A DNA stretch of 42,735 nt from the IMG/VR virus record IMGVR_UViG_3300020020_001120, positions 1 to 42,735 of that record. One strand, given 5' to 3'. Numbering within the stretch: position 1 is the stretch's first letter; each line of letters begins with the position of its first letter. Below the pieces are notes generated by a model. It was given only the letters and a program-made list of their open reading frames with translations, was not told where the DNA came from and searched no databases. Source of the DNA: a virus. A program made the position numbers and the translations under genes. Below, in pieces: positions 101 through 42,735 of this stretch.

Positions 101-343
101 GTGATCCGTCGCGGTATAAGCCGACACATGCCAGACAGCCCACCCAACAACGACCTACGCGCGCAACGACTCGCGCTCATTGCCGACCTCGAAGCGATGC
201 AGATTCAGATGCGCTCACTGCGCGCCCGCGTACAACTCGGCGACCCAGAAGCCGAGCGCGAAGGGCGCGAGCTCGTAAAGGTATTGCAGCCGCACGCCGC
301 CGCCATCATGGCCGCCATCGCCAAAAGGCCGCGCACGAAGTGA
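101..343 (+). CDS. Small hypothetical protein, 80 aa
   Basis: I do not recognise this protein. It is mostly helical by composition, with a charged, Leu/Arg/Glu-rich middle and an Ala-rich end, and has no Cys or membrane segment. The GTG at 101 is preferred because AAAGG at 84-88 is a reasonable ribosome site 12 bases upstream; an ATG at 128 is the alternative and would give 71 aa. It converges on the minus-strand pair at 384-853, and the 40 bases between hold an array of 8-bp repeats. Function unknown. Confidence 0.5.
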   Translation: MIRRGISRHMPDSPPNNDLRAQRLALIADLEAMQIQMRSLRARVQLGDPEAEREGRELVKVLQPHAAAIMAAIAKRPRTK

Positions 344-348
344 CCAGC

Positions 349-388
349 GCATCGGTGCACCGGTCGACTGATGCATCGGTGCTCTAGT
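349..388. repeat. Octad repeat array 1 (five 8-bp units)
   Basis: Contiguous 8-bp units read GCATCGGT, GCACCGGT, CGACTGAT, GCATCGGT, GCTCTAGT. It lies between two convergent genes (stops at 343 and 384), so it is not a promoter site for either. Related arrays are at 4525-4604, 16708-16755, 16922-16969, 28865-28912 and 42183-42230. Contiguous short direct repeats with fixed phase are the kind of site bound by RHH partition/regulator proteins (omega, ParG); binding by the RHH protein of this window is inference. Confidence 0.7.
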
Positions 389-853: not shown

Positions 854-1293
854 AGCCGAGCTATAGCCTCATGGCGCAGCCGACACCAGACACAACCGAG
901 CCCGCGAATCAGCGGTCGCTAGGGCCTCGCTAAGGCGAGAGAGACGCACGCGGCTCTGTAGGAGCGACCGCCCCTTCGAAGCTCCCTCACGCCAACGTCG
1001 TGCGAGCAAACGGCGTTTACGCACTACGGCTACACGCGCTCGCGAGCTAGAGCCCCGGCGCGCTAGCGCGCGAGCTAGAGCGCCGGGCTAGAGTCTCCGA
1101 GCGCTATTTGCTTGACACGGGTCTGCGCCGCACATGTACGCTCGCGCGTGCGCGGTCTCAGTTAACCGAGAGACTAGGCTTACGCTCTCCGTTGAGACGT
1201 CGTCAGAAGAGAATCTCGCAATCTGGGCAGAGGCACGGAATCCAGATCTTGCTTTGCTGAGCGCCGATACATGCGCGCGCGCGAGACGCGACC
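854..1293. other. Non-coding, repeat-rich flank of the plasmid origin
   Basis: I see no convincing gene here. The stretch has a 9-bp inverted repeat (912-920 with 963-971) enclosing a smaller hairpin, two copies of GAGCTAGAGC 28 bases apart (1044-1053 and 1072-1081) around a GCGCGCTAGCGCGC palindrome, and a TTGACA at 1112-1117. GTCTC/GAGAC arms around GTTAAC near 1154-1174 form another dyad. Short frames exist on both strands but have shadow-like composition. The region adjoins the iterons, so these are probably origin or copy-control elements. Confidence 0.5.
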
Positions 1294-1356
1294 AACCATG
1301 TCTGGAACGGTCCCAACCATGTTTGGAACGGTCCTTAACCATGTCTGGAACGGTCC
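1294..1356. repeat. Three 20-bp replication iterons
   Basis: Three direct copies of AACCATGTCTGGAACGGTCC occur at 1294-1313, 1315-1334 (one mismatch, TTT for TCT) and 1337-1356. The 21- and 22-bp periods put all copies on one face of the helix, as expected for initiator-binding iterons. They lie downstream of the TrfA-like gene, which is transcribed toward them, and 30 bases from a DnaA box. Together these mark the vegetative origin of the plasmid form. Confidence 0.85.
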
Positions 1357-1385
1357 CCGCAAATGGCGCTAGCGCGGGGATAACG

Positions 1386-1394
1386 TGTGGATAA
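1386..1394 (-). promoter_or_regulatory. Perfect DnaA box
   Basis: The 9-mer TGTGGATAA is the reverse complement of the consensus DnaA box TTATCCACA. It follows the iterons by 29 bases and is itself followed by an inverted repeat, CCTACC at 1395-1400 with GGTAGG at 1405-1410. A GCGCTAGCGC palindrome at 1366-1375 lies between iterons and box. Host DnaA participation is what is known for TrfA-type origins. Confidence 0.75.
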
Positions 1395-1467: not shown

Positions 1468-2241
1468 TCAACCGTTCGAGGAAACGACGTCAGCCTCGAA
1501 CCGCAGGCGCAGCAGGCCGTGCGCCTGCAGCTCGCTCACCGCCGCCTTTACGCGCCGCCGCACCTCGTTAGGTGGCTGCGTCGGTGCGATGCGTCGGCGA
1601 ATCGTGTCGAGCGTCACTGACGGCACCGCCGAGAGGCACAGCTGCAGCCACTGCGCGAGAGGCCGGTTGCCGACTGCGTGCCTCGTCGGCTCGTCAATCT
1701 CAACCATGCCGAGCGCCATCACGTCGAGCATGTCGCGGTTTAGCCACAGCGAGAGCTTGCCGCCCTCGAGCTCGGCGTCGAGCAGCAGACCGCCGAACGC
1801 TCGGCGCTGCTCGTCGCGACTCTCGAGTGCAGCCCTGCCGAGGCCTCGAACAAGCGACCACAGCGCGTTAAGGTTGTACGCGCCACCCTTGCGCGCGAGG
1901 GCGCGGTTTAGCTCCGAGAGCGGCAACGACACGCGCTCACCGGCGCTGCAGCCCTCGAGTCGAGAGACCGCAAGCATCCACACGTCAGCGTGCGCCTGCG
2001 TGAGCTCGGGCCCGTCGAGCCAATACACGCGACCCGCGCCGCGCAGCTCGAGGGCCCGCTCACGCTCGCGAGCCTTGCCGACATGCGAAGCTGTGAAAAC
2101 GTTGGCGCGAATCACTTCGAGCGGCATCTGCAGGGTACCCGATCGGCATCGTGGCACGCGTTCGAGCGGCGCGCGAGTGCGTGCAAGTGCGCTCCCGGCA
2201 AGTGCCTTGAGCTTATCGGCCGCATCTGCTTTACTCTCCAT
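1468..2241 (-). CDS. TrfA-like plasmid replication initiator
   Basis: The 257-aa product resembles the TrfA family, which binds iterons and recruits DnaA and the replicative helicase. The middle carries the family pattern of LPLSELNRALARKGG, then ALWSLVRGLGRAALE, then a Leu/Asp stretch and HAVGNRPLAQWLQL, followed by a second winged-helix-like half ending at the C-terminus. The ATG at 2241 is preferred over the GTG at 2244 because an AGGGA site (minus strand, 2252-2248) is then six bases away. The gene reads toward the iterons at 1294-1356. An inverted repeat (GCGGG/CCCGC, about 2255-2271) just upstream may be an autoregulatory site. Identification rests on motif memory plus the adjacent origin. 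Confidence 0.8.
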   Translation of the reverse strand: MESKADAADKLKALAGSALARTRAPLERVPRCRSGTLQMPLEVIRANVFTASHVGKARERERALELRGAGRVYWLDGPELTQAHADVWMLAVSRLEGCSAGERVSLPLSELNRALARKGGAYNLNALWSLVRGLGRAALESRDEQRRAFGGLLLDAELEGGKLSLWLNRDMLDVMALGMVEIDEPTRHAVGNRPLAQWLQLCLSAVPSVTLDTIRRRIAPTQPPNEVRRRVKAAVSELQAHGLLRLRFEADVVSSNG

Positions 2242-3376: not shown

Positions 3377-3787
3377 ATGCCGGGTAGTCGACTTGATGCG
3401 CTTCGCGCAGACGCCGCCATCGCTCAAGAGCTCGCCGACCTCGACGACGCTCGCGCGACCGTAGCCGCGATCCACGTGGCGCGGGTACCGCCCCATCATC
3501 ACCTGTCGCGCATCTGGCCGATCACCCCGCCGCGCTCACGTCTCGGGGTCTGGTGTCAGTGGCTCGGATTTTCCAAAGCTGATATCGCCGCCGCTCAATT
3601 CCGCGCGCCCATCCGCGTCGCGGCCGACGTCGCGCACGCCATTCGAAAGCTCGCGCCGAACATGCCGAGCGCGCTCGGCGTGGCGCTCGCCGTGCTCGAG
3701 TCGTGCGGCATCGTGCTCGACGGCGACTCGCTCGCCATCCTCTGCACGTTCGCGGCGCAGTGCCGCTTCCCTAGGCCCGTTTCTTAG
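3377..3787 (+). CDS. Hypothetical protein, 136 aa
   Basis: No family is recognised. The second half (from about residue 60) reads as regular helices with a possible DNA-binding-like pattern (FSKADIAAAQFRAPIRVAADVAHAIRKL), reminiscent of a small HTH, followed by a hydrophobic C-terminal helix pair. An AGGGGGG ribosome site about 13 bases upstream supports the ATG. The last 17 bases overlap the end of the repressor gene on the other strand (convergent). Confidence 0.55.
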   Translation: MPGSRLDALRADAAIAQELADLDDARATVAAIHVARVPPHHHLSRIWPITPPRSRLGVWCQWLGFSKADIAAAQFRAPIRVAADVAHAIRKLAPNMPSALGVALAVLESCGIVLDGDSLAILCTFAAQCRFPRPVS

Positions 3788-4524: not shown

Positions 4525-4604
4525 GCACAAGCGCACCGACCTACCAGTGCTCAAGTGCACACGTGTGCGAGTGTGCGCGAGCACGCGTGCTCATGAGCAT
4601 TGCG
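4525..4604. repeat. Octad repeat array 2 (ten degenerate 8-bp units)
   Basis: Read in 8-bp steps from 4525 the units include GCACCGAC, CTACCAGT, GCTCAAGT, GCACACGT, GCACGCGT, GCTCATGA and GCATTGCG. The phase is kept although individual units drift from the GCACCGGT consensus. It lies in the regulatory space between the CI-like and Cro-like genes. Confidence 0.5.
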
Positions 4605-4646: not shown

Positions 4647-4949
4647 ATGCAACTCGCTCAGTGGGTCGAGACACAGGACGCCGGCGTGCTGACACGCCTA
4701 CAGCTGCAGACGGGCTTGAGCTACACCGCGATTCTGCGCGCGGTGCATCGCCGCACGAAGCCCCTGTACCAGACGGCTCACAAGATTGCCGCCGCCACCA
4801 ACTATCAGGTGAGCGTCGAAGAAATCTGTGCACCGCCGCTGCCGCCAGCGCCGAAGCGCAAGCGCGCAAAGAAGCCGGCGAAGCCCGTCGTCGCTAAGAA
4901 GCCCGCGAAGCGCAAGCGCGCCGCGCAGCCGTCGGCGGCGACCGCCTAG
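4647..4949 (+). CDS. Small Cro-like HTH regulator with basic tail
   Basis: The 100-aa product has an XRE/Cro-type helix-turn-helix over about residues 14-58 (LTRLQLQTGLSYTAILRAVHRRTKPLYQTAHKIAAAT). A Lys/Arg/Pro/Ala-rich tail from about residue 65 resembles histone H1-like tails and should bind DNA nonspecifically. It is the first gene of the rightward early operon and diverges from the CI-like repressor, so a role as antirepressor or early regulator is inferred. A GGACGG stretch just before the ATG is a weak ribosome site. Confidence 0.65.
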   Translation: MQLAQWVETQDAGVLTRLQLQTGLSYTAILRAVHRRTKPLYQTAHKIAAATNYQVSVEEICAPPLPPAPKRKRAKKPAKPVVAKKPAKRKRAAQPSAATA

Positions 4950-5050: not shown

Positions 5051-6127
5051 ATGCCAAAAGCTCCGAGCCGACCACGAATAGCGCATGCGCCGGAGCGACA
5101 GCTCACGGTGAAGGTGCCGTCGCGCTACTGGGCGGCCGATTCGCCGCTCGATGGTATCAGCCTCGCCGTCTGGGTCGGGCTCTTGCACCTCGCTCGGCGC
5201 ACCGAAGAGCGGGCTCGCGCGCGTGACAGTCACGGGGACAGTCACGCGTCGCTCGAGCGTGACAGTCACGCTCTGATTGAGCGCGGCGACGTGTACCCGG
5301 CGCAGTCAATCCGTGATGCCAACATGCAGCCGCTCACGCTCGCCGCGATTGCGCGTTTCGTGAAACTCCCACGCCATCAAGTGCAGCACGCAATGCACCA
5401 GCTCGAAGCCGCGGATGAGATTGCCAAAAGCCTAGACGGTGCCTACGTTTTGACCGAGTACAAGGTCACGCAGGAGTGCGCTGGGACCGAGCGCAAGCGC
5501 CGCCAGCGAGCCCGAAAAAAGCGGGACAGTCACGGGGACAGTCACGCCGCATCCGAGCGGGACAGTCACGGGGACAGTCACGCTTCGCCGCGTGACAGTC
5601 ACGCCCTCGCGCGCGCGTTCTCAGAGATTGAAGAGTTAGAAGAATTTAAGATCTCACAAGCCGCCGCTCTCACACTCTTTAATCCTGCCGCACGCGCGCG
5701 GGCGCACGACAGCGGCGTGTTCACGGTGCCGAGTGAGATTGCCGGCCACCGCTGGTATCACGCCCTCATTTGGTCGGCATGCACGCTCACGGCGCCGGAG
5801 CCGACGCCGAGCAGCAAGCACTTTGCCGCCTACCAGTTCATCGGTCGGCAGTCTCCGGCCGACCGTGCGCGCGTCGAAGCGTGTGCTCGCACCGTGCTCA
5901 CGGGGCGCTCAGAGTCCGCGCATTGGTTCACACCCACGCACGTCATGGACCACTGGCCGCACTATCTCAGCGGCAACCCGCCCAAGCTTCGAGGCTCGGC
6001 GCCGGCTCGCCCGGTCGAGACGCCGGCCGACCTCGACCAGGCGCGCGCCGAGCTGGAGCGCGCAGCCGCCGCGAAGCCGCCCAGCTGGCTCGACACCCGG
6101 CCCGACGGCTCGCGGGTGGCTACATGA
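5051..6127 (+). CDS. Lambda-O-like replication initiator with internal iterons
   Basis: The 358-aa product sits directly before a DnaC-like loader, the O-P arrangement of lambdoid replication. The N-terminal half reads as a winged-helix region (QLTVKVPSRYWAA..., LTLAAIARFVKLPRHQVQHAMHQLEAADEI). Two DSHGDSHA-type segments, near residues 58-75 and 158-185, are the translation of eight copies of GACAGTCACG in the DNA. By analogy with lambda O, which holds its own origin iterons, this is probably the lytic origin. Starts at TTG 4997 and ATG 5009 are possible, but both overlap a hairpin, so ATG 5051 is chosen. The stop overlaps the next ATG (ATGA). Confidence 0.7.
   Translation: MPKAPSRPRIAHAPERQLTVKVPSRYWAADSPLDGISLAVWVGLLHLARRTEERARARDSHGDSHASLERDSHALIERGDVYPAQSIRDANMQPLTLAAIARFVKLPRHQVQHAMHQLEAADEIAKSLDGAYVLTEYKVTQECAGTERKRRQRARKKRDSHGDSHAASERDSHGDSHASPRDSHALARAFSEIEELEEFKISQAAALTLFNPAARARAHDSGVFTVPSEIAGHRWYHALIWSACTLTAPEPTPSSKHFAAYQFIGRQSPADRARVEACARTVLTGRSESAHWFTPTHVMDHWPHYLSGNPPKLRGSAPARPVETPADLDQARAELERAAAAKPPSWLDTRPDGSRVAT
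5225..5603. repeat. Eight internal iterons (GACAGTCACG), lytic origin candidate
   Basis: Exact copies of GACAGTCACG start at 5225, 5237, 5261, 5525, 5537, 5561, 5573 and 5594. Spacings are 12, 24, then 12, 24, 12 and 21, so most copies are in phase with multiples of 12. Several are extended to the near-palindrome GTGAC-A-GTCAC. They lie inside the O-like gene in two clusters about 250 bp apart. A ninth copy is at 16994-17003. Confidence 0.8.
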
Positions 6128-12152: not shown

Positions 12153-12683
12153 ATGTCAGAGCAGTCGACGGCGCTGATACTCACGATAGTTCCGACGACT
12201 CTGCGCGAAGCATCGGCGTTTGTGGGTCGCCATCACCGGCACCATCCGCCCCCGCAGGGGGGGGCGTTCGCAATCGCCGTTGCGCGCGATGGTGAGATCG
12301 TAGGTGTGGCGATTGTCGGGCGCCCAGTGGCGCGCATGTCAGACGACGGCTTTACGGCAGAGGTCACACGCGTGTGCGTCGTCGACGACGTAAAGAACGC
12401 ATGCTCGAAGCTCTATGCGGCTGCGTGGCGAGCTGCGCGCGCCATGGGCTACCGCCGATGCGTCACCTACACCCTAGCGACCGAGCCCGGTGTCAGCTTG
12501 CGCGGCGCCGGTTGGCGTCTCGTCGGCGAAGCCGGTGGCGGGTCATGGTCGCGCGCGGGTCGACCGCGCATCGACATGCATCCGCTGCAGACCAAGCTCC
12601 GATGGGAAGCTATTGACACCCGCGCACCCTGCCAATACAGCCCGACATGGATTGGCGCTCCGACAGCTGGGAAAACGCCGTAA
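12153..12683 (+). CDS. XF1762-family (GNAT-like) phage protein
   Basis: The 176-aa product matches the family pattern strongly: FVGRHHRHHPPPQGGAFAIAVA, then GEIVGVAIVGRPVAR, TAEVTRVCVVDDVKNACSKLYAAAWRAARAMGYRRCVTYTL, and GAGWRLVGEAGGGSWSR. These proteins share a GNAT acyltransferase-like fold and are common near phage head genes, but their substrate is not established. The start is placed directly after promoter P1 with no room for a ribosome site, implying leaderless translation. The last 37 bases overlap the portal gene in another frame and contain the portal promoter. Confidence 0.8.
   Translation: MSEQSTALILTIVPTTLREASAFVGRHHRHHPPPQGGAFAIAVARDGEIVGVAIVGRPVARMSDDGFTAEVTRVCVVDDVKNACSKLYAAAWRAARAMGYRRCVTYTLATEPGVSLRGAGWRLVGEAGGGSWSRAGRPRIDMHPLQTKLRWEAIDTRAPCQYSPTWIGAPTAGKTP
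12613..12641 (+). promoter_or_regulatory. Late leaderless promoter P2
   Basis: TTGACA (12613-12618), 17 bp, TACAGC (12636-12641), five bases, ATG 12647. TGCCAA immediately precedes TAC, as in P1 and P3. It lies inside the 3' end of the upstream gene and should drive portal and downstream head genes. Confidence 0.7.
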
Positions 12684-14071
12684 CCGGGCTCGGCACGCTG
12701 CGCGACAAGCTGCAGGCGCACACGCCGCGGATGCGCAACCAGCTGTCCGACACAGCGCTCGAGGCACTGCACACCGAAGACGATATCTGCGCGCGCATTG
12801 TCGAGCAGTTGCCGGCCGACGCTTTGCGCGAGGGCTTTTCGGTCGCCATCAAGTCCGACCAGGTCGCCGACACGACGACCGTCGGCAAAGACATCGACGA
12901 GGTGCTCGCCGGGCTCGGCGCCGAAGCCGCGCTGCGCGAGGCCTGGGTGTGGGGTCGCCTCTACGGCTTCGGCGCCGTCTTTCTCGGCGTCGACGACGGC
13001 CGCACGCCAGACGACCCGCTCGACCTCGAAGCCGTCGTGCGTCTCACGCACCTCACGGTATTCCGTCGGACGCAGCTGCAGCAAAACACGTATTACGGCG
13101 ACCTCTCGGCGCCCAACTACGGCAAGGTCGAAACCTACCGCGTCACCAATCTCGGCGTGCCGCACGGCAGCGTGGCGAAGCCCATCTCGCCGGCCGCGGG
13201 CTCGCTCGTCATACACGAGTCGCGCTTGCTGGCGTTCCGCGGCGTGCTCACATCACGCTACGGCGCGCAAGCTGCGTGCTTCTGGGACGACTCCATTTTG
13301 CAACGCGTGTTCCAAGCGGTGCAGGCGAGCTCGTCGAGCTGGATGGGCGCAGCCCATCTCATGACAGATGCGTCGCAAGGCGTTCTCAAGATCGCCAACC
13401 TCATGCAGCTCATGACGGCGGCGGGCGAAGAGAAACTGCGCGCGCGCATCAAGTTTCTGGACATCTGCCGCAGCGTCGCGCGCGCCATCTTGCTCGACGA
13501 GCGTGAGAGCTTCGAGCGCATCGCAACGCCGTTTAGCGGCATCCCGGAGCTGCTCGACCGTTTCATGATGCGCGTGGCCAGTGCTGCGCAGATGCCGGTT
13601 ACCGTGCTCTTCGGGCGCTCGCCCGCCGGCATGAACGCCACCGGTGAGTCGGACATTCGCACGTGGTACGACCAGGTCGCCGCCGAGCGCGGTAAGCGGC
13701 TCACGCCGGCGATCGATAAGCTCGTGCGTGTGGTGATGGCGACCGACAAGGGGCCCACCAATGGCAAGCAGCTCGACGGCTTCGAGGTCTGCTATCCGCC
13801 GCTCTGGCAACCGACCGCCAAAGAGCGCGCGGAGACTTTCAAGACGACCGCCGACGCGCTCGCGACGCTCGTCACGGCGAAGATCATTTTGCCCGAAGAG
13901 GCCGGCATCAAGCTCGCCAAGGGCGGCGACTTCGACGAGCTCGACGTCGAAGCCCGCGAAGCGGCGCTGCAGTACGAGCTCGAGCGACTCGCCGAACCAG
14001 AGCCGGAGCCAGAGCCGCCGATGCTGCCGCCGCCTAACGGTCTCGAGCCACCGGAGCCTTACGAAGCATGA
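12647..14071 (+). CDS. Portal protein (DUF1073-type)
   Basis: The 474-aa protein follows terminase and resembles the DUF1073 portal family. Indicators are the N-terminal NQLSDTALEALHTEDDICARIVEQLPADALREGF, a central WVWGRLYGFGAVFLGVDDG, LLAFRGVLTS, and a late PVTVLFGRSPAGMNATGESDIRTWYDQV. The last motif is typical of portals. The portal forms the dodecameric ring at the head vertex through which DNA passes. A Pro/Glu-rich tail (PEPEPEPEPP) ends the protein. Start follows promoter P2; stop overlaps the next ATG. Confidence 0.8.
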   Translation: MDWRSDSWENAVTGLGTLRDKLQAHTPRMRNQLSDTALEALHTEDDICARIVEQLPADALREGFSVAIKSDQVADTTTVGKDIDEVLAGLGAEAALREAWVWGRLYGFGAVFLGVDDGRTPDDPLDLEAVVRLTHLTVFRRTQLQQNTYYGDLSAPNYGKVETYRVTNLGVPHGSVAKPISPAAGSLVIHESRLLAFRGVLTSRYGAQAACFWDDSILQRVFQAVQASSSSWMGAAHLMTDASQGVLKIANLMQLMTAAGEEKLRARIKFLDICRSVARAILLDERESFERIATPFSGIPELLDRFMMRVASAAQMPVTVLFGRSPAGMNATGESDIRTWYDQVAAERGKRLTPAIDKLVRVVMATDKGPTNGKQLDGFEVCYPPLWQPTAKERAETFKTTADALATLVTAKIILPEEAGIKLAKGGDFDELDVEAREAALQYELERLAEPEPEPEPPMLPPPNGLEPPEPYEA

Positions 14072-16209
14072 GCGCGGCGGCGCCGCGCTTGCGCTCGAGC
14101 TCGGCGCCCGACTTTCCCACGACGGCGCTGCACGGCTACCTCTCCGCGCTGCTCGGTAACAGCCGCGATATCGAGCGCACGTTGCGCGCGCACATCTTGC
14201 CGTATCTGCCGACGCTCGCGGACCGCTATGCAGTCGCTGCGAATAGGCGCAACGACGCCCGACGCATGCGCGTGGCTGTCGTCGGCGGTCCGCGCACCGG
14301 CAAGTCGACCGCTGCTCGAGCGCTCGCCGATGCGCATGGGCTGCCGCTGCGGCACGCAGACGACCTCATACCGCTCGGTTGGAGCCGCGCCAGCGAGCAG
14401 CTCGCGCACGAGATACGCCTATCCGACGGGGGTATCTTCGAGGGCGTGGCGATCGCGAGGGCGCTGCGCAAGCTGCTCGAGCTCGAGCCCGGCCAGCCGC
14501 TCGACGCCGTCGTGCGCATGCGCGAGCCGTATGCCGAGCTCACGCCCGGGCAAGCGGCCATGTCCGCGGGTCACGACCGCGTGCTCGAAGCCATCCTGCC
14601 GGAGCTCGAGCTCCGTGGCGTGCGCGTGCTCGAGCTGCCGGCACAGGGGCTCACCGCTCGTGCGGCGCTTACGTTCGCGGCGCGCGCCGGCATCACTCCG
14701 CGACTCGACGCACGCGACCCGCTGCTCAGCGAGCTCTTCGCGCGCGCGCGTGCTGCGCACCGCTTCGACATTCGCACGGCCGCGCTGCTCGCCGGCCAGC
14801 GTGTCGACGAGCACGTGCGCGAGACGCTCGAGCGCCAGGTCGGCGAAGCGCTCGGCTTGCCGCGCTACCAGATTCGCGCCGCGCTTGCGCCGCCCGCGCG
14901 CACCGACGCCATACGCACCGATGCGAGGCGAAAGAAGCCCGCGCAAAAGCTCGCCGCCATCGACCCGCTCACGCCCGGTGGGCCGATCGCCGAGAAGCTC
15001 GATAAGTTCGTGAAGAGCAACGTGGCGCGCGTAGGCGGCATGACCGACGGCGTGTATGCGGACGTCGAAGCCTCTGTGCGCAAGGGGCTCGAGCAAGGCT
15101 TGCGACCCGACGCGCTCGCGGCGCGGATTCTCTCGCAAAACAAATCGCTCAGTGAGACACAGGCGACCATCATCGCCAACGACGCCGTCGGCAAGTTTCA
15201 CGGCGCACAGACGCAGCTGCGGCAGCAGTCGCTCGGCGTCACTCACTACCGCTGGCGCACCGTGCGCGACCTCAAGGTGCGTCCGGGTCACCGTGCGCTC
15301 GAGGGAACCACGCAGGCGTGGGATTCGCCGCCCGTCACAAACTCCAAAACAGGCAAGCGCGCACACCCCGGCTTCGACACGCACTATTACGCGTGCCGCT
15401 GCAGCGCGTCGCCCATCATCGACCCGGCGACGATTGCGCCGCCGCCTGACAGCCCGTTCGCACGCAAGCCGGGCGCACCGCCCACGCAGCTACCGCTGCC
15501 AAGCGTCCCAACGCCCACCGTTCCGCGCCGCTTCCCAGTGCGCACAGAGCCGGCGAAGCCCGCCAGGGCGCCGAGAGTGCGGCGCCGCCCGCTGGCGCAG
15601 CCAGCGCCGGATGCGCCGTTGCTCACGCAACCGCCGCCGACGGCACCCATCGCGCCGAGCTCGCCGCCGTTGCCTGTCCCGCCGGCGCCGACGCCGCTGC
15701 CGCCGACCGCTGCGCCCGCAGTGCCGCGCGGCTTACCCGTGCGCACCGAGCCGGCGAAGCCCGCCAGGGCGCCGAGAGTAAGGCGCCGCCCGCTGGCGCG
15801 GCCAGCGCCGGATGCGCCGTTGCTCACGCTGCCGCCGCCGTTGCCGCCGCCGATACCGCCGCCGATACCGGCCGCAGACCAGACGCTACTGACGCCGCTC
15901 GAATACGGCGTCTCCGACGCTCAGCTGGAGTATCTGCGCGAGGGCATGCGGGACATGACTGTCATCACCAGCGCATACGTCGGGGCCACGCCGGCCGAAG
16001 TCGACTTGATTGCGACGGGACAAACGCGCACCCAAACCGGCCAGGCTTTCGAGCCGATCGTGATATCGGTCGAGCCGGGCTACATGGAGCTGACAGACGG
16101 TCGGCACCGCATGGCGGCGGCTCGCGCAGCCGGTGCGACGCGAATCCTTGCGCGCATCAAGACGCCCGGCGGGCGCGAATACCTGCGCGTGATTCCCATC
16201 CCGCGTTAG
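14068..16209 (+). CDS. MuF-type minor head protein fused to a P-loop kinase-like and a ParB/Srx-like domain
   Basis: The 713-aa protein is a fusion. Residues 1-60 look like the start of a MuF/SPP1-gp7 protein. About 66-190 is a P-loop kinase-like insert: AVVGGPRTGKST (Walker A 74-81), then PLRHADDLIPLGWS, IFEGVAIARALRK and TPGQAAM. About 195-450 is the MuF region, with RWRTVRDLKVRPGHRAL near 395 and a YYACRCSASP strand near 440. A Pro-rich linker (about 455-605) contains two near-identical 36-residue repeats. The last 108 residues end in a ParB/Srx-like DGRHRMAAARAAGATRILARI (DGRHR at 677-681). MuF proteins are carried in the virion, and some temperate-phage MuF proteins carry C-terminal toxin domains. 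Roles of both extra domains are inferred. Confidence 0.75.
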   Translation: MSAAAPRLRSSSAPDFPTTALHGYLSALLGNSRDIERTLRAHILPYLPTLADRYAVAANRRNDARRMRVAVVGGPRTGKSTAARALADAHGLPLRHADDLIPLGWSRASEQLAHEIRLSDGGIFEGVAIARALRKLLELEPGQPLDAVVRMREPYAELTPGQAAMSAGHDRVLEAILPELELRGVRVLELPAQGLTARAALTFAARAGITPRLDARDPLLSELFARARAAHRFDIRTAALLAGQRVDEHVRETLERQVGEALGLPRYQIRAALAPPARTDAIRTDARRKKPAQKLAAIDPLTPGGPIAEKLDKFVKSNVARVGGMTDGVYADVEASVRKGLEQGLRPDALAARILSQNKSLSETQATIIANDAVGKFHGAQTQLRQQSLGVTHYRWRTVRDLKVRPGHRALEGTTQAWDSPPVTNSKTGKRAHPGFDTHYYACRCSASPIIDPATIAPPPDSPFARKPGAPPTQLPLPSVPTPTVPRRFPVRTEPAKPARAPRVRRRPLAQPAPDAPLLTQPPPTAPIAPSSPPLPVPPAPTPLPPTAAPAVPRGLPVRTEPAKPARAPRVRRRPLARPAPDAPLLTLPPPLPPPIPPPIPAADQTLLTPLEYGVSDAQLEYLREGMRDMTVITSAYVGATPAEVDLIATGQTRTQTGQAFEPIVISVEPGYMELTDGRHRMAAARAAGATRILARIKTPGGREYLRVIPIPR
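15520..15829 (+). repeat. Pair of about 109-bp direct repeats in the linker of the MuF fusion
   Basis: The segments 15520-15628 and 15721-15829 are nearly identical, offset by 201 bp. Each encodes PVRTEPAKPARAPRVRRRPLA followed by PAPDAPLLT. The high DNA identity suggests recent duplication or conversion, and recombination between them would shorten the linker by 67 residues without a frameshift. Confidence 0.8.
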
Positions 16210-16592
16210 CTCGCCGACGTCGCCGCTCGGTACGTCACACGCGTGTAGCGCTGCCCACCGGGGCCCATGGCTCGCTCGTCGAGCTCGCGCACGCACGCGC
16301 AGCGCTCGCACGACTCGACCCGCACGCCGCTTCCGGCGAGCACTGGCAACCAGGCGTGCACACCGTGAGTCGGACACAGCGGCTCGCGCGGCGGCACCTC
16401 GACATAGACCGAGCCCGCCTCACCGCTCGACTCGCACACGACTGACACCTCGAGCAGCCACGTCGAGCAGCTCCGTGCGCGTTGCGAATCCACGTCGACA
16501 CGTGCGAGCGCTTGCGCCAGCGCCATCTCCGCAGTTGCGCTCTCGACCGCGGTATACGGGGTTGCGTCTTCTGACACGATCCATGTTGCCAT
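16206..16592 (-). CDS. Reverse-oriented accessory (moron-like) protein, 128 aa
   Basis: This is the only minus-strand gene within the 8.8-41 kb rightward late block. It has its own signals: TTGACC (16650-16645), 18 bp, TATAGC (16626-16621), then an AGGAGG ribosome site (16609-16604) 11 bases before the ATG. That is unlike the neighbouring leaderless genes and is the hallmark of a gene expressed from the prophage. The product has an Ala-rich N-terminus, five Cys (CVVCES earlier; CERCAC later) and a C-terminal GPGGQRYTRVTYRA strand. No family is recognised. It overlaps the MuF gene end by four bases. Confidence 0.65.
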   Translation of the reverse strand: MATWIVSEDATPYTAVESATAEMALAQALARVDVDSQRARSCSTWLLEVSVVCESSGEAGSVYVEVPPREPLCPTHGVHAWLPVLAGSGVRVESCERCACVRELDERAMGPGGQRYTRVTYRAATSAS

Positions 16593-16620
16593 CGCCTAAC
16601 AAGCCTCCTGTGTACGACGA

Positions 16621-16650
16621 GCTATAGCGCTGCAACTCTAGCGCGGTCAA
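16621..16650 (-). promoter_or_regulatory. Promoter of the reverse-oriented gene
   Basis: TTGACC, 18-bp spacer, TATAGC on the minus strand: a conventional sigma-70-like promoter followed by a strong AGGAGG ribosome site at 16609-16604. Start of transcription is predicted near 16614. Confidence 0.6.
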
Positions 16651-16707
16651 CAGAACGCGGTGCGCAAAACGGTCGCGCGGTACGCTGTGTGTAATGTGTG
16701 CATAAGT

Positions 16708-16755
16708 GCACCGATCCTTCGATGCTCTGGTCGACCGGTGCACCGGTGCGTGTAT
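16708..16755. repeat. Octad repeat array 3 (six 8-bp units)
   Basis: Units are GCACCGAT, CCTTCGAT, GCTCTGGT, CGACCGGT, GCACCGGT, GCGTGTAT, contiguous and in phase. The array lies upstream of the minus-strand accessory gene and its promoter. Confidence 0.7.
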
Positions 16756-16795
16756 CCACCCCGGCGCCGGCCGACCGCTCGAGCGCCGTGGCTCA

Positions 16796-16898
16796 CCCGG
16801 GGGGCTAGCAAGTGACCTGCTAGCCCCCGGGCGGGAGCGACCGACCGCTCGCCATTCCGGCCGCATTCGGGGGCTAGCAAGTCACCCGCTAGCCCCGG
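16796..16898. repeat. Two direct copies of a GCTAGC-centred hairpin
   Basis: Hairpin 1 pairs GGGGGCTAGCA (16800-16810) with TGCTAGCCCCC (16818-16828) around a 7-base loop. Hairpin 2 pairs GGGGCTAGC (16870-16878) with GCTAGCCCC (16888-16896) around a 9-base loop. The left halves are an 18-bp direct repeat (GGGGGCTAGCAAGT-N-ACC) 69 bases apart, so this is a duplicated element. It could be a bidirectional terminator pair or a recombination, resolution or replication site. No T tract follows either. Confidence 0.75.
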
Positions 16899-16921
16899 GT
16901 CCGGGCGCCCGGGGGTAAGGC

Positions 16922-16969
16922 GCACCGGTGCACCGATCCACCGGAGCACCGGTGCTCTTGACAATCGGT
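16922..16969. repeat. Octad repeat array 4, overlapping promoter P3
   Basis: Units are GCACCGGT, GCACCGAT, CCACCGGA, GCACCGGT, GCTCTTGA, CAATCGGT. The -35 TTGACA of P3 (16958-16963) lies inside units five and six, so a protein covering the array should repress P3. Confidence 0.75.
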
Positions 16970-16986
16970 CGCCGTGCCAATACGCG
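16958..16986 (+). promoter_or_regulatory. Late leaderless promoter P3
   Basis: TTGACA (16958-16963), 17 bp ending TGCCAA, TACGCG (16981-16986), five bases, GTG 16992. Its -35 is embedded in octad array 4, and a copy of the replication iteron (16994-17003) starts at the third base of the GTG. Confidence 0.7.
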
Positions 16987-16988
16987 TC

Positions 16989-17005
16989 CGCGTGACAGTC
17001 ACGCG
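16989..17005. promoter_or_regulatory. Iteron copy forming a 17-bp perfect palindrome at a late promoter
   Basis: CGCGTGAC-A-GTCACGCG is a perfect palindrome containing GACAGTCACG, the same 10-mer found eight times in the O-like gene. It covers the predicted transcription start and first codons of the protease/scaffold gene. Confidence 0.65.
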
Positions 17006-18203
17006 CTACGATGCCGCCCGGTTAGGCAACGCCAGAAAGACGTCGCAAGGCTTTTTGCGGGCCCCAGCGCGCGTCACGCGCACGGGCGTCCTGACCTACC
17101 ACCGCGCCGACGGGACGGTCGTGCGCGAGCTCAGGCGGCCCGACAACGTCTTCGCCGCCGACTCGCTCGCTACCCTCGCCGACGCGCCCGTCACCGACCT
17201 GCACCCGCGCGACATGCTCTCACCGAGCAACGCCAAGCAGCTCGCCGTCGGCCATGTGTCCGGCGCATCCGCTCGAGCAGACGCTGGCAAGTTTGTGGAA
17301 GCCCAGCTCGTCATCACCGACGCTGCCATGATCGCGGCCATCGAAGCCGGCGACCGGAGCGAGGTGAGCTGCGGCTACACGTGCGACCTCGTGCACGGCG
17401 CCGGGGTGTTTCAGGGCGAGCACTACGACGCCGAGCAAAAAAACATCATCTACAACCACGTCGGCATCGGGCCGCGCAATTGGGGCCGCGCTGGCGCCGA
17501 AGTCGCGCTGCGACTCGACAGCAAGACGCCTGACGACTTTGCGCTCGGCACAGACGCCGCGCGAGCAGTGCTCACTGACGAGCCAAAGAGGGATAGCCAC
17601 ATGGATCTGGTCACCATCCGTATCGACGGAATCGAAGCGCAAGTCTCGCCGACTGCCGCGCAAGTCATGCAACGCTCACTCGACGCGCGCGACACCGCGG
17701 CACGCGACGCCACGTCGAAGCTCACCGACTTGCAAAAGCGCGTCGACGGGCAGCAAGCCGAGCTCGACGCGACGAAGGCGCAGCTCGCGCAAGCGGCCGA
17801 CCCCAAGCGCTTCGACACGGCGCTGCGCGAGCGGCTCGACTTGCTCGACAAGGCGCGGCCGGTGCTCGGCAGAGACGCAAAGCTCGACGGCAAGACACCG
17901 CGCGAAATCAAAGAGCTCACACTCGAGAAGCTAAAAGTAGGCGGCAAGCTCTCCGAGCGCGCCGACGCCTACGTCGACGTGCTCTTCGACGTCACGGTCG
18001 ACAAGTGGCTCGCGGACAACAAGAACCGCGAGCCACGAGGCGGCGGTTCGCCGCCTCCACACCACGACGGCGGCGGCGCCGGTGACGACAACGACGTGCA
18101 CGCGATCCTCGACGGTCGTCGCAACGACGGCAGAGAGCTGCCCAAGCGCGAATACCAGACGCCACCGTGGCGCTCGAAGCTCGCGAGCTCGCGCTCCAAG
18201 TAG
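16992..18203 (+). CDS. DUF2213-type prohead protease/scaffold protein
   Basis: The product (403 aa from GTG 16992) begins with a DUF2213-like protease region: VTRTGVLTYHRADG, then RRPDNVFAADSLATLADAPVTDLHP, VGHVSG, and SEVSCGYTCDLV...NHVGIGPRNWGRAG. From about residue 205 it becomes a charged coiled coil (LQKRVDGQQAELDATKAQLAQ) and acidic linker, as expected of scaffold. A GTG at 16974 would lie upstream of the P3 transcription start, so 16992 is chosen. An in-frame ATG at 17601 with AGAGGG eight bases before it should give a separate scaffold product of about 200 aa, as with nested lambda C/Nu3. Confidence 0.8.
   Translation: MTVTRYDAARLGNARKTSQGFLRAPARVTRTGVLTYHRADGTVVRELRRPDNVFAADSLATLADAPVTDLHPRDMLSPSNAKQLAVGHVSGASARADAGKFVEAQLVITDAAMIAAIEAGDRSEVSCGYTCDLVHGAGVFQGEHYDAEQKNIIYNHVGIGPRNWGRAGAEVALRLDSKTPDDFALGTDAARAVLTDEPKRDSHMDLVTIRIDGIEAQVSPTAAQVMQRSLDARDTAARDATSKLTDLQKRVDGQQAELDATKAQLAQAADPKRFDTALRERLDLLDKARPVLGRDAKLDGKTPREIKELTLEKLKVGGKLSERADAYVDVLFDVTVDKWLADNKNREPRGGGSPPPHHDGGGAGDDNDVHAILDGRRNDGRELPKREYQTPPWRSKLASSRSK
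17601..18203 (+). CDS. Nested in-frame scaffold product (internal start)
   Basis: ATG 17601 is in frame with the protease/scaffold gene and has AGAGGG (17587-17592) at good spacing. The full-length gene itself is leaderless, so this is the only recognisable ribosome site in the gene. The 200-aa product would contain the coiled coil and acidic tail without the protease region. Nested scaffolds are known in many tailed phages; its use here is inferred. Confidence 0.55.
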   Translation: MDLVTIRIDGIEAQVSPTAAQVMQRSLDARDTAARDATSKLTDLQKRVDGQQAELDATKAQLAQAADPKRFDTALRERLDLLDKARPVLGRDAKLDGKTPREIKELTLEKLKVGGKLSERADAYVDVLFDVTVDKWLADNKNREPRGGGSPPPHHDGGGAGDDNDVHAILDGRRNDGRELPKREYQTPPWRSKLASSRSK

Positions 18204-28864: not shown

Positions 28865-28912
28865 CGACCAGTGCACCGGTGCACCGATTCGCCGGTGCTC
28901 TTGCGCTTCGGT
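28865..28912. repeat. Octad repeat array 5, overlapping promoter P5
   Basis: Units are CGACCAGT, GCACCGGT, GCACCGAT, TCGCCGGT, GCTCTTGC, GCTTCGGT. As at 16922-16969, a GCTCTTG unit supplies the promoter -35. The array fills the space between the spike and W genes. Confidence 0.75.
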
Positions 28913-28935: not shown

Positions 28936-29385
28936 GTGACCGACCTTGCGCTCGACCCGCTCGACGGGGACATCGTGATCGCTGGCGGCGACCTTGCGCT
29001 CGTCCACGGGGCCGACGCCGTCGCCCAAGACATCAAGCTGCGCGTCGCCCTGTTCAAGGGCGAGTGGCCACTCGATACCCGCGTCGGCATCGACTACCGC
29101 ACGCTGTTCTTTGAGCGCCGGCCGCCCGACCAGGTCGTGCGCGCGGTGTTCACACAGGTGCTGCGCGAGACGGGCGGCGTCGCCAGCGTCGACCGTCTGC
29201 AGATTGGCTTCGCCCGCGCGGAGCGCTCGCTCAACATCTCGGCGACCGTCACGACGACCGCCGGCGAGGTCGTGCCGGTCTACCGCGACGTGCTCGTGAC
29301 GCTCGACGCGTCGACCGAGCCCACAGACATCGCCACACCCACCGGCACCGTGGCGCCGGCGCGCTTCAACGGGGGCTCACCGTGA
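28936..29385 (+). CDS. Baseplate wedge protein W (gp25/Mu gp46-like)
   Basis: The 149-aa product begins VTDLALDPLDGDIVIAGGDLALVHGADAVAQDIKLRVALFKGEWPLDTRVGIDYRTL, a clear match to the W/gp25-like family, which starts the sheath and joins wedges to hub. The frame is open further left to 28879, but the family N-terminus starts at GTG 28936. That is also five bases after promoter P5, so homology and promoter geometry agree on a leaderless start. The stop overlaps the J gene start. Confidence 0.8.
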   Translation: MTDLALDPLDGDIVIAGGDLALVHGADAVAQDIKLRVALFKGEWPLDTRVGIDYRTLFFERRPPDQVVRAVFTQVLRETGGVASVDRLQIGFARAERSLNISATVTTTAGEVVPVYRDVLVTLDASTEPTDIATPTGTVAPARFNGGSP

Positions 29386-37075: not shown

Positions 37076-37885
37076 ATGGCAACCCAACGATGCACAGTCA
37101 CCGTCACCGCGCAGCCCGCTGGCAGCCCCGGGCCCGTCGGACCCGCGGGTCCGGTCGGGCCCGCGGGTCCTCCTGGAGCTGGCGGCGCAGCGACCGTGCT
37201 CGCGCCCTACTTGACGCCGCCGCTGGTGGCTGCCGCACTAAATGACGAGTTTGACGCCGGCTCGCCGGTGCTCGGCGATCGCGGATGGACGGCTCTGCAC
37301 AACGGCACCGGCGAGCTGCTCACGCGCAAGGGCGAGGTCACGACGGCGGCGCCCGTGCTGGGCCCGACCGAATACAACTCAACGCTCGTCAATGGGGTGA
37401 TTCGAATCCAGTCGACGAGCGGCATGCGGCTAACAAAAGCGCTGTCAGCGCCGCAGACGCAGATCGCTGCGCGCTTCACCGACCCGCGCATGAACACGTC
37501 GCAAGTGATTCAGATGCAGCTGACAAACGTCGCTGGAGCGCACGACCCGACGACGGTCGCGCTGAGCTACGGCTATTTGTGGGGCAACCGCTGCCGGTCG
37601 TACAAGTATCTCGACCTGACGCCGACCACGCTCAGCACGGTTGTGCCGGGCGTTGACGACGGTGCTTACGTGTTTGTGCAGGATTGGCGCCCCTCTGATT
37701 CGCGCTGGGGTAGCGCCGTGATCAACCCGCACACGCAGCGCATGCTGCGCGTCGAGGGTGGTGGGTTTGCACCTCTGACGCCGACGCGTGCCGGCTTCGA
37801 GATCCTCACGGTGGCCGCGACGTTTGCCTGGGTCGAAATCGATTACATCCGCGAATATCCATACGGCAGCTGGTTTCCCGCGTGA
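37076..37885 (+). CDS. Collagen-like fibre protein 1, 269 aa
   Basis: A short N-terminal strand is followed by a Gly-X-Y run (GSPGPVGPAGPVGPAGPPG, residues about 16-36) and a C-terminal globular domain of about 220 residues, DEFDAGSPVLGDRGWTALHNGTGEL...WVEIDYIREYPYG, which has the look of a lectin-like beta-sandwich. Collagen-like stalks with globular heads are used as trimerising spacers in phage fibres. Likely a receptor-binding protein. Confidence 0.65.
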   Translation: MATQRCTVTVTAQPAGSPGPVGPAGPVGPAGPPGAGGAATVLAPYLTPPLVAAALNDEFDAGSPVLGDRGWTALHNGTGELLTRKGEVTTAAPVLGPTEYNSTLVNGVIRIQSTSGMRLTKALSAPQTQIAARFTDPRMNTSQVIQMQLTNVAGAHDPTTVALSYGYLWGNRCRSYKYLDLTPTTLSTVVPGVDDGAYVFVQDWRPSDSRWGSAVINPHTQRMLRVEGGGFAPLTPTRAGFEILTVAATFAWVEIDYIREYPYGSWFPA

Positions 37886-38368: not shown

Positions 38369-39348
38369 CTATCAAACTCAAGCAGATAGACCTACCGCCC
38401 GGCATGTCGACGACCGCGGTCACCGACGGCGCGTTGCTCACCGGCACCGAAGCGGCCGAGCTCATCGCGGGTGTGGACGGCACCAACCACGCCCAATTTG
38501 TCGCGACGGAAGCCGATGGCCGGGTGAAGATCTCAGACGGCGGCGTGCCGTTGCGGATCTCTGTGCCGTCCGTAGCAGATGCTGGCAACAGCACCGACAC
38601 GCCGCTTGCTGCTAACGGCGTCTTTACCGGCGCTGCCGTATTCGTGCAAGACTACGCAGCGATCGGCGTGCACGCGTTTGCTAACGTGGGGTCAGCCACT
38701 GACGGGCTGAAAATGCAGTGGTCAACAGACGGCGTTCTCTGGAGTGAGACGCTCGCCTTTACGCTGCTACCGAGCCTCCCGGGATCGTATACGGTCGGAC
38801 CGCGAGCGGCGTATTTCCGCGTCGTGTTCACGAACGGCGGCACGGCACAGACTACGTTCCACATACAGACCATCCTGCATTACACGGTGGTGCGCACCGG
38901 GACTATTCGCATCTCCGATGTGACTCACCCCGAATCCGACGCGTCGATCGTCAAATCGGTGATCACGGGCCGCACGACTCAGGGCGGCGGCGGGTACGTC
39001 GACGTCAAGGTCGCGCCGTCCGGCGCAGTGGCGATCGACGGCTCGGTCACGGTCTCGAATTTCCCAGCATCGCCAGGTGCACCAGCTACGGCAACCGTTG
39101 CCAGCGTCGCCGCCGCCATCACATCCGTTACGCTGCTCGCGAGCAATGCGCTTCGCAGGGGCTCGACGGTCCAGAACGACTCAACATCGCCGCTGTATCT
39201 CAAGCTCGGCAGCGCTGCTTCGAGCTCGAGCTACACGTGCCTTATGGTGCCGGGCTCATACTATGAGACGCCGTACGGCTACACCGGGATCATTACCGGT
39301 GCATGGGCCTCTGCAGTGGGTGCCGCTCTAGTGACGGAGGTTGCATAA
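38365..39348 (+). CDS. Putative fibre/virion protein, 327 aa
   Basis: The ATG overlaps the stop of collagen-like protein 2. The product is beta-rich with no catalytic motif. It contains AQFVATEADGRVKISDGGVPLRISVPS and QTTFHIQTILHYTVVRTGTIRISDV, and a C-terminal part with SNALRRGSTVQNDSTSPLYLKLGSAASSSSYTCLMVPGSYYETPYGYTGIITGAW, a pattern I associate with small phage beta-sandwich appendage proteins. Function inferred from place and composition. Confidence 0.55.
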   Translation: MTIKLKQIDLPPGMSTTAVTDGALLTGTEAAELIAGVDGTNHAQFVATEADGRVKISDGGVPLRISVPSVADAGNSTDTPLAANGVFTGAAVFVQDYAAIGVHAFANVGSATDGLKMQWSTDGVLWSETLAFTLLPSLPGSYTVGPRAAYFRVVFTNGGTAQTTFHIQTILHYTVVRTGTIRISDVTHPESDASIVKSVITGRTTQGGGGYVDVKVAPSGAVAIDGSVTVSNFPASPGAPATATVASVAAAITSVTLLASNALRRGSTVQNDSTSPLYLKLGSAASSSSYTCLMVPGSYYETPYGYTGIITGAWASAVGAALVTEVA

Positions 39349-41184: not shown

Positions 41185-41208
41185 GGCTCTAGCCCGGCAG
41201 CTAGAGCC
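41185..41208 (+). terminator. Hairpin after the late operon
   Basis: GGCTCTAGC (41185-41193) pairs perfectly with GCTAGAGCC (41200-41208) around a 6-base loop. It lies 24 bases after the stop of the last tail gene. There is no T tract, so it may be a weak or factor-assisted terminator. The same CTAGAGC word recurs in the origin flank near 1047-1093. Confidence 0.5.
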
Positions 41209-42167: not shown

Positions 42168-42182
42168 CGTCCCACCGCCAGT

Positions 42183-42230
42183 CTACCGAAGCATCGGTGC
42201 GTCTGTGCACCGGTGCTTCGATGCGCTTGT
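42183..42230. repeat. Octad repeat array 6 (six 8-bp units)
   Basis: Units are CTACCGAA, GCATCGGT, GCGTCTGT, GCACCGGT, GCTTCGAT, GCGCTTGT. It lies between the RHH gene (ends 42316) and the HTH regulator gene (starts 42167), overlapping the predicted transcript start of the latter. Confidence 0.7.
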
Positions 42231-42238: not shown

Positions 42239-42315
42239 TATCCGCTATAAGCGCCGCCGGGCGCGTGTCTGGCGGCTCTAGGCGCCCGGCGCTACCACGC
42301 GTTGCCCAAAACCCC

Positions 42316-42735
42316 CTAACGTCGCTTGCGCGCCGCCAGCTCGTTGCGCGCAATCCATTCCTTCGCAGCCGTCTCGGCCGCTTCCGAAGCGCTCAGCTCG
42401 AGCGCTTCGGCACGCTCGGCGAGCCGCTCGAGCGTCGCCGTGGTGAGCAGCGCGGCGCCGCCCCCGAAGAATCGCTCGAGCGCATCGGCGACGACGGTCG
42501 ACATCTCGATACGCCGGCTCGCGCAATGGGCGCGCAGCTTCTCGCCGATCGCCTTGGGCAAGTAGGACGTGACGCGGTCGAGCTCGGCTTTGCGCCGCCG
42601 GTGCACGAGCCCGCGCGCCGAGCCCTTGACCCCCGTGGGCTTGTCGACGAGCTCGAGCGCCAGGTCGTCGACGCCGGAGCCCGGGATGGCGGTTTGCCGC
42701 GACGAGCGCGGCGACGACAGCGGACGCGGCTTCAT
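42316..42735 (-). CDS. Ribbon-helix-helix protein, ParG/omega-like centromere-binding candidate
   Basis: The 139-aa protein has a basic, proline-rich N-terminal arm (about 55 residues), a ribbon-helix-helix core VTSYLPKAIGEKLRAHCASRRIEMSTVVADALERFF at about 55-91, and a charged helical tail. The arm-plus-RHH layout is that of small centromere-binding partition proteins, which also act as regulators. Its ATG is the last triplet of the window, and the first bases read ATGA. An upstream gene could therefore end in an overlapping TGA; a ParA-type ATPase just outside the window would be expected but is not visible. Candidate binder of the six octad arrays. Confidence 0.6.
   Translation of the reverse strand: MKPRPLSSPRSSRQTAIPGSGVDDLALELVDKPTGVKGSARGLVHRRRKAELDRVTSYLPKAIGEKLRAHCASRRIEMSTVVADALERFFGGGAALLTTATLERLAERAEALELSASEAAETAAKEWIARNELAARKRR

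Follow-up and report, generated by a model that had tools for sequence, protein, structure and literature searches.

A putative divergent late promoter of a probable phage-plasmid bordered by candidate arrays for its centromere-binding protein

In the window, by which the whole 42,735-nucleotide stretch of viral DNA analyzed here is meant, a gap among the late genes was found to contain two arrays of 8-bp near-palindromes, two hairpins, and two putative promoters that point away from each other. The gap is read here, with better than even confidence and from sequence comparisons, as the divergent late promoter of a phage-plasmid under the control of a centromere-binding protein (CBP), where the arrays would serve as centromere-operator sites and the hairpins would be accessory.

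Results

The window comprises most of a tailed-phage genome, with genes for the terminase, portal, head morphogenesis, head maturation protease, major capsid, tape measure, baseplate wedge, and tail, and has a coding fraction of 92%. On the gene map of the window, no other non-coding stretch of the late block is as long as the gap at positions 16593-16973, in agreement with an earlier note on this DNA that had called it the only long gap there. The gap is flanked on the left by a head-morphogenesis gene (14068-16209, plus strand) and a leftward gene, and on the right by the protease gene. Relatives of the protease were found at 16 IMG/VR loci, 15 of them at 83-91% identity, and the comparison of the gap covered 13 sequences, namely the window and 12 relatives. 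The features of the gap and its borders are listed below, identified from the letters themselves unless another basis is given.

16206..16592, minus strand: leftward gene, encoding a 128-aa protein with a C-x2-H / C-x2-C zinc-ribbon-like motif
16604..16609, minus strand: Shine-Dalgarno sequence AGGAGG of the leftward gene, invariant in 13 sequences
16621..16650, minus strand: putative left promoter, with -35 TTGACC (16645-16650), an 18-bp spacer, and -10 TATAGC (16621-16626)
16686..16705, minus strand: DnaA-box-like 9-mers TTATGCACA and TTACACACA, 11 bp apart (16686-16694, 16697-16705)
16701..16748, no strand: left octad array, six units of 8 bp, present in all relatives
16769..16781, plus strand: copy 1 of the GRCCGACCGCTCG repeat that flanks hairpin 1
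16800..16828, no strand: hairpin 1, GGGGGCTAGCA-AGTGACC-TGCTAGCCCCC, with an 11-bp perfect stem and a 7-nt loop
16839..16851, plus strand: copy 2 of the repeat, GACCGACCGCTCG, partly conserved in relatives
16870..16896, no strand: hairpin 2, GGGGCTAGC-AAGTCACCC-GCTAGCCCC, with a 9-bp perfect stem and a 9-nt loop, missing in several relatives
16908..16916, plus strand: CCCGGGGGT unit, single in the window
16923..16954, no strand: right octad array, four units, immediately before the -35 box of the late promoter (sequence and conservation)
16958..16963, plus strand: TTGACA, putative -35 box of the rightward promoter of the head-tail operon, invariant in 13 sequences
16974..18203, plus strand: head maturation protease gene, first gene of the rightward operon (PHROG 530, 3.7e-80)
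16989..17005, no strand: 17-bp palindrome CGCGTGACAGTCACGCG, with a core shared with eight repeats in the replication gene

The octads follow the consensus CACCGGTG, a palindrome with an 8-bp period, as obtained from 123 units in four long genomes. The earlier note had placed one octad array on either side of the hairpins, and both arrays proved real: each is kept in 13 of 13 sequences, where Markov sequences of the same size give a chance expectation of about 0.02 arrays per window. Besides these two, arrays were found at the following places in the window.

342..381, no strand: octad array between convergent genes
4526..4557, no strand: weak octad array in the divergent repressor region, below the filter of the array scan
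28866..28897, no strand: octad array between baseplate genes
42176..42223, no strand: octad array following the CBP gene and preceding a small HTH gene

The window total thus amounts to five strong arrays and one weak array, all six of them intergenic, and each long relative contains five to eight. In one of these (G010), an array at 29269-29308 occupies the place that apparently corresponds to the weak array of the window.

Both putative promoters were conserved in the comparison. The hexamers TTGACC and TATAGC of the left promoter are invariant in 13 sequences, and its spacer is 2 bp shorter in L021. On the right, TTGACA directly adjoins the array in every one of the 13 sequences, and the promoter that the earlier note had seen beside this array is retained here as a putative one whose -10 box is not clear-cut. 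A -10 element about 17 bp after TTGACA would place the transcript start near GTG 16992, which suggests a leaderless protease mRNA. Codons 1-12 of the protease gene showed the lowest synonymous divergence (0.058 versus 0.10-0.35 in other blocks), which points to a non-coding constraint on this stretch or else to GTG 16992 as the true start, and the annotated GTG start may accordingly be wrong. At the protease start, CGCGTGAC(A/T)GTCACGCG is kept in 13 of 13 sequences.

All 13 sequences carry DnaA-box-like 9-mers in the interval that separates the left promoter from the left array; their quality varies, and those of the window are less perfect than those of its relatives. For example, the stretch in L010 reads TTATCCACAgtTTACACACAggTTATCCACA and contains three 9-mers in an 11-bp phase, the outer of which overlaps the terminal octad CACTTATC; the outer unit of the left array in the window overlaps such a 9-mer as well. 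Most strict DnaA-type 9-mers were located either in the gap or beside rep; G012 has two more elsewhere. These 9-mers, the leftward promoter with its AGGAGG, and the 17-bp palindrome add to the features that the earlier note had described. In L010, L011, L013, and L021, the CCCGGGGGT unit is moreover amplified, and its several copies occupy the stretch from the hairpin to the right array.

The leftward 128-aa protein is well conserved across 12 aligned sequences (its anchor pattern was not found in L018); it has no PHROG or NCBIfam match and nothing above the cutoff in Pfam. Elsewhere in the late block, a Mom-like DNA modification gene lies at 12153-12683, with the terminase on one side and the portal on the other (PHROG 1384, 1.2e-38). 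The gap region gave no meaningful DNA matches in the phage and plasmid DNA collections and no match in an Rfam scan, and a genome scan for a host that bears the protease matched no isolate or host genome.

Within the gap region, conservation is lower for the striking hairpins than for the rest. Both GCTAGC-containing hairpins of the earlier note were confirmed with their perfect stems of 11 and 9 bp, as was the lack of a T tract: there is none on either strand, and a terminator scan was silent at both places. The 18-bp direct repeat that the note had described in them keeps its start-to-start spacing of 69 bp and is not exact, matching at 17 of 18 positions with one mismatch; it extends to 36 nt at 86% identity. 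The hairpin pattern reached the count of the window in none of 100 shuffles and, outside the gap, was absent from the window and from the related contigs searched. The search in related phages that the note had suggested, run as an exact-pattern scan of IMG/VR, matched only relatives in this phage group.

Among the relatives, the sequence between the arrays has a GC content of 71-78% and a length of 98-250 bp. Most of them contain one or two GCTAGC hairpins, with stems of about -20 to -37 kcal/mol, while in about one third the hairpins are lost, decayed, or replaced. Specifically, the hairpin is mismatched in L015 and decayed in L018, only a short one is present in L012, and L016 combines a short hairpin with an unrelated large hairpin where hairpin 1 would sit. 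The loss of hairpin 2 in L007 and similar differences look like deletions between G runs. A conserved hairpin structure was considered as a selected feature and rejected, since it is not uniform and its folding z-scores range from -5.4 to +1.0 across relatives; the z-scores of -8 to -9 for the fold of the whole island were set aside because the octads pair mutually and dominate that fold. A meaning centred on the hairpins, as the earlier note had it, is not supported, as their copy number and sequence vary whereas none of the 13 sequences lacks the arrays or the promoters.

The replication and partition elements of the window lie toward its two ends, as listed below.

1292..1394, no strand: probable plasmid origin, with three 21-bp iterons CCAACCATGTCTGGAACGGTC (1292-1357) and a perfect DnaA box (at 1386), beside the Rep-like gene
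1468..2241, minus strand: Rep-like gene, fast-diverging (residue pattern and divergence)
5225..5603, plus strand: GACAGTCACG repeats, eight exact, in the reading frame of the putative lytic replication gene (5108-6127)
42316..42735, minus strand: CBP gene, 139 aa, predicted ribbon-helix-helix (RHH) protein, at the right edge of the window

No family model matches the Rep-like protein, so its assignment is only inference. The protein at this position in G010 is 32% identical to that of the window and 52-53% identical to those of G012 and G015, and such divergence may mark incompatibility groups. The GACAGTCACG repeats, which can be likened to the iterons in lambda O, are conserved in G010, G012, and G015: each of the four long genomes has seven to eight copies in the replication gene and one in the gap, and the window and G010 have one extra copy elsewhere.

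The CBP has the residue pattern of an RHH protein. No RHH family matched it above the Pfam cutoff, and its AlphaFold (AF2) models were poor, with low confidence or without the strand. In three relatives (L023-L025), parA is directly upstream of the CBP gene with overlapping start and stop; in the window, parA would be beyond the edge. The ParA of these relatives is a short protein of 240 aa with a Walker A motif from about residue 12 and without an N-terminal HTH domain, followed immediately by the small CBP gene, both of which are traits of type Ib systems; it scores 3.5e-48 and 164 bits against NF041546, just below the 180-bit cutoff. A short-repeat centromere at or near the par operon, a further type Ib trait, was found in G010 and G012, where arrays lie on both sides of the parA-CBP operon (37089-37120 and 38385-38440 in G010; 3448-3479 and 4749-4796 in G012). 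The gap and the par array are so placed in G010 and in the window as to agree with a circularly permuted map of about 47 kb, on which parA falls in the segment that the window lacks. A tyrosine recombinase (PF00589) is encoded near parA in G012 (L033:1-987), with a matching stretch at the start of G015, and may serve the phage-plasmid as a dimer resolvase or integrase.

The best plasmid matches of the ParA were those of pMF1 from Myxococcus fulvus (37%) and pSa001 from Sandaracinus amylolyticus (38%), and a genome scan with ParA as the query found only distant ParAs at 22-32% identity. These relatives of ParA hint at a host in Myxococcota. The CBP resembles the pSa001 protein that adjoins parA (BLASTP 8e-6; hhalign E 2.5e-5), a protein (P0002) that passes the Pfam model 56B_RHH (PF21432), and gave no match in the plasmid collection by tblastn. 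Arrays with an 8-bp period are present on both plasmids, and the one upstream of parA on pSa001 (L048:5720-5960) is its apparent putative centromere.

Discussion

Virion genes and plasmid replication and partition genes were found on one element, where the partition part is taken from the ParA-CBP of the long relatives. With a CBP homologous to the pSa001 protein, a ParA that resembles those of pSa001 and pMF1, and a pMF1 ParB that binds dispersed 8-bp arrays, this phage is probably a phage-plasmid whose type Ib centromere/operator sites are dispersed. Homology and architecture, namely the parA-CBP operon with its flanking arrays and the likeness to both plasmids, indicate that the octads are most likely the sites of the phage's own CBP.

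Under the favoured reading, the left promoter would drive the small zinc-ribbon-like protein and the right promoter the protease-head-tail operon, each bordered by an array of sites for the CBP, a predicted RHH analogue of ParB in a type Ib system. In the dormant plasmid state, CBP dimers would fill the arrays side by side. The filled gap arrays, together with the other dispersed arrays, would then be centromere sites for ParA, and the filled right array would occlude the adjacent -35 box and keep the virion operon off. Such occlusion is the simplest regulatory step, since the RHH ParBs of the pSM19035 type bind contiguous repeats cooperatively and control promoters (PMC9499535). The arrays at 342-381 and 28866-28897 have no obvious promoter alongside, which suggests that partition is the common role to which regulation was added, and that regulation may not apply everywhere. 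The DnaA-box-like 9-mers that overlap the left array and the initiator-type palindrome at the protease start may add an input from the replication state. The binding of the CBP to the octads, the repression, the binding of DnaA, and the role of the hairpins are steps that we infer; the hairpins appear secondary, most likely as weak barriers against read-through that comes from the upstream head operon, or as slippage-prone filler.

Several known systems share parts of this arrangement. The ParB of pMF1 binds dispersed arrays of AGATGTCT units in vitro, as demonstrated by footprinting and EMSA, and represses par (PMC3235114). The type Ib parCAB of this plasmid resembles the phage in its related ParA, the small CBP gene after parA, and the contiguous 8-bp near-palindromes beside and away from par (PMC3235114). 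Unlike the phage, pMF1 is a plasmid with another octad sequence, a ParC, and some dispersed arrays within ORFs, and no array is known at a virion promoter. Similarly, the par of pSa001 combines a related ParA and CBP with 8-bp-period repeats upstream of parA, but it is not from a phage, its repeat sequence differs, and its putative centromere is known from sequence alone. In the Delta/Omega system of pSM19035, the RHH protein Omega binds contiguous 7-bp repeats at several promoters and joins partition with transcription control, though these heptads are non-palindromic and the plasmid is from Firmicutes (PMC9499535). The mycobacteriophages of the RedRock type, temperate phages whose extrachromosomal prophages are kept as plasmids, have a parABS whose par is flanked by the loci parS-L and parS-R, made of eight 8-bp repeats (PMC7157519). 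They differ as actinobacteriophages with parS near par, or by repA in some phages, and dispersed arrays at virion-gene promoters are not described in the part of that source drawn on here (PMC7157519). The phage-plasmid N15 also has several separate centromere sites for its SopABC (PMC7205306). It differs in its HTH-type SopB, its single inverted repeats, and its type Ia system. The centromere sites of N15 are placed genome-wide.

Other accounts of the gap were weighed against this reading. That the hairpins form a T-less bidirectional terminator or insulator, which keeps read-through of the upstream head operon, antisense to the leftward gene, from reaching the protease operon, is quite possible, at somewhat less than an even chance. 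The head gene and the leftward gene run toward each other until their ends overlap, no terminator separates them, the stems are stable in most relatives, L016 swaps in an unrelated large hairpin at the same place, and similar T-less GC-rich hairpins, themselves possible terminators in the same style, closely follow the last late gene (41185-41208) and come after the CBP gene of the par operon (42255-42291). However, no relative has a T tract on either strand, the stem is decayed in L018 and weak in L012 with folding z-scores near zero in both, and the hairpins lie upstream of both promoters and outside both transcripts. As some relatives do without hairpins, such a role is not essential. We consider it unlikely that the GCTAGCARGTNACYTGCTAGC dyad is instead an operator for a phage HTH regulator at both promoters: it is an odd-length, near-perfect palindrome with a partly conserved centre, it is confined within IMG/VR to this phage group, and the window encodes several HTH genes, yet no second copy is near any regulator gene, its promoter distance and copy number vary, and some relatives have lost it.

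The chance that the gap is a second replication origin, with DnaA boxes, iteron-like arrays, and hairpins, is small. Its 9-mers keep the 11-bp phase seen near rep and an initiator-type palindrome is present, but it has no AT-rich unwinding element, no skew change, and none of the 21-bp rep iterons. Still smaller is the chance that the dyad is a lox-like core site where a tyrosine recombinase would resolve dimers. Some relatives have 13-15-bp arms around an asymmetric 7-9-bp spacer, and the recombinase near parA in G012 and the matching stretch in G015 would fit; against it, arm sequences vary, no dyad copy is near the recombinase, an ORF examined in the same area of G010 has no Pfam match, and G012 itself, which bears the recombinase, has a decayed dyad, making such a site unlikely. 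The earlier note had floated a dimer-resolution, pairing, packaging, or replication-related role. Pairing survives in that the arrays would be partition-type sites, and no recombinase site, packaging site, or replication-origin role was found for the hairpins. Its view that the island exceeds the needs of a divergent promoter or terminator is borne out by arrays that match the dispersed partition set and by the DnaA-box-like and initiator-type motifs.

An extended form of the CBP-controlled promoter, offered tentatively and rather doubtful at present, would have the gap work as a switch with several inputs: one stretch would be bound by the partition protein, host DnaA, and the phage replication initiator, which would jointly license virion-gene expression. 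If true, the phage-plasmid would sense its own replication and segregation state before it quits dormancy.

Judged by its sequence likeness, the partition module appears to be a new relative, carried by a phage, of the pMF1 kind, and what is new here is that such arrays stand at a virion-gene promoter alongside motifs of the replication type. A specific 8-bp code and a candidate binding protein are now on offer and can be tested in vitro. As the arrays probably dock the phage's own segregation protein, virion-gene expression and the inheritance of the dormant phage may be linked. If the reading is right, the segregation protein would double as a silencer of virion genes through genome-wide centromere arrays, and plasmid maintenance would be tied to the lysis decision in a phage group without an isolate identified here.
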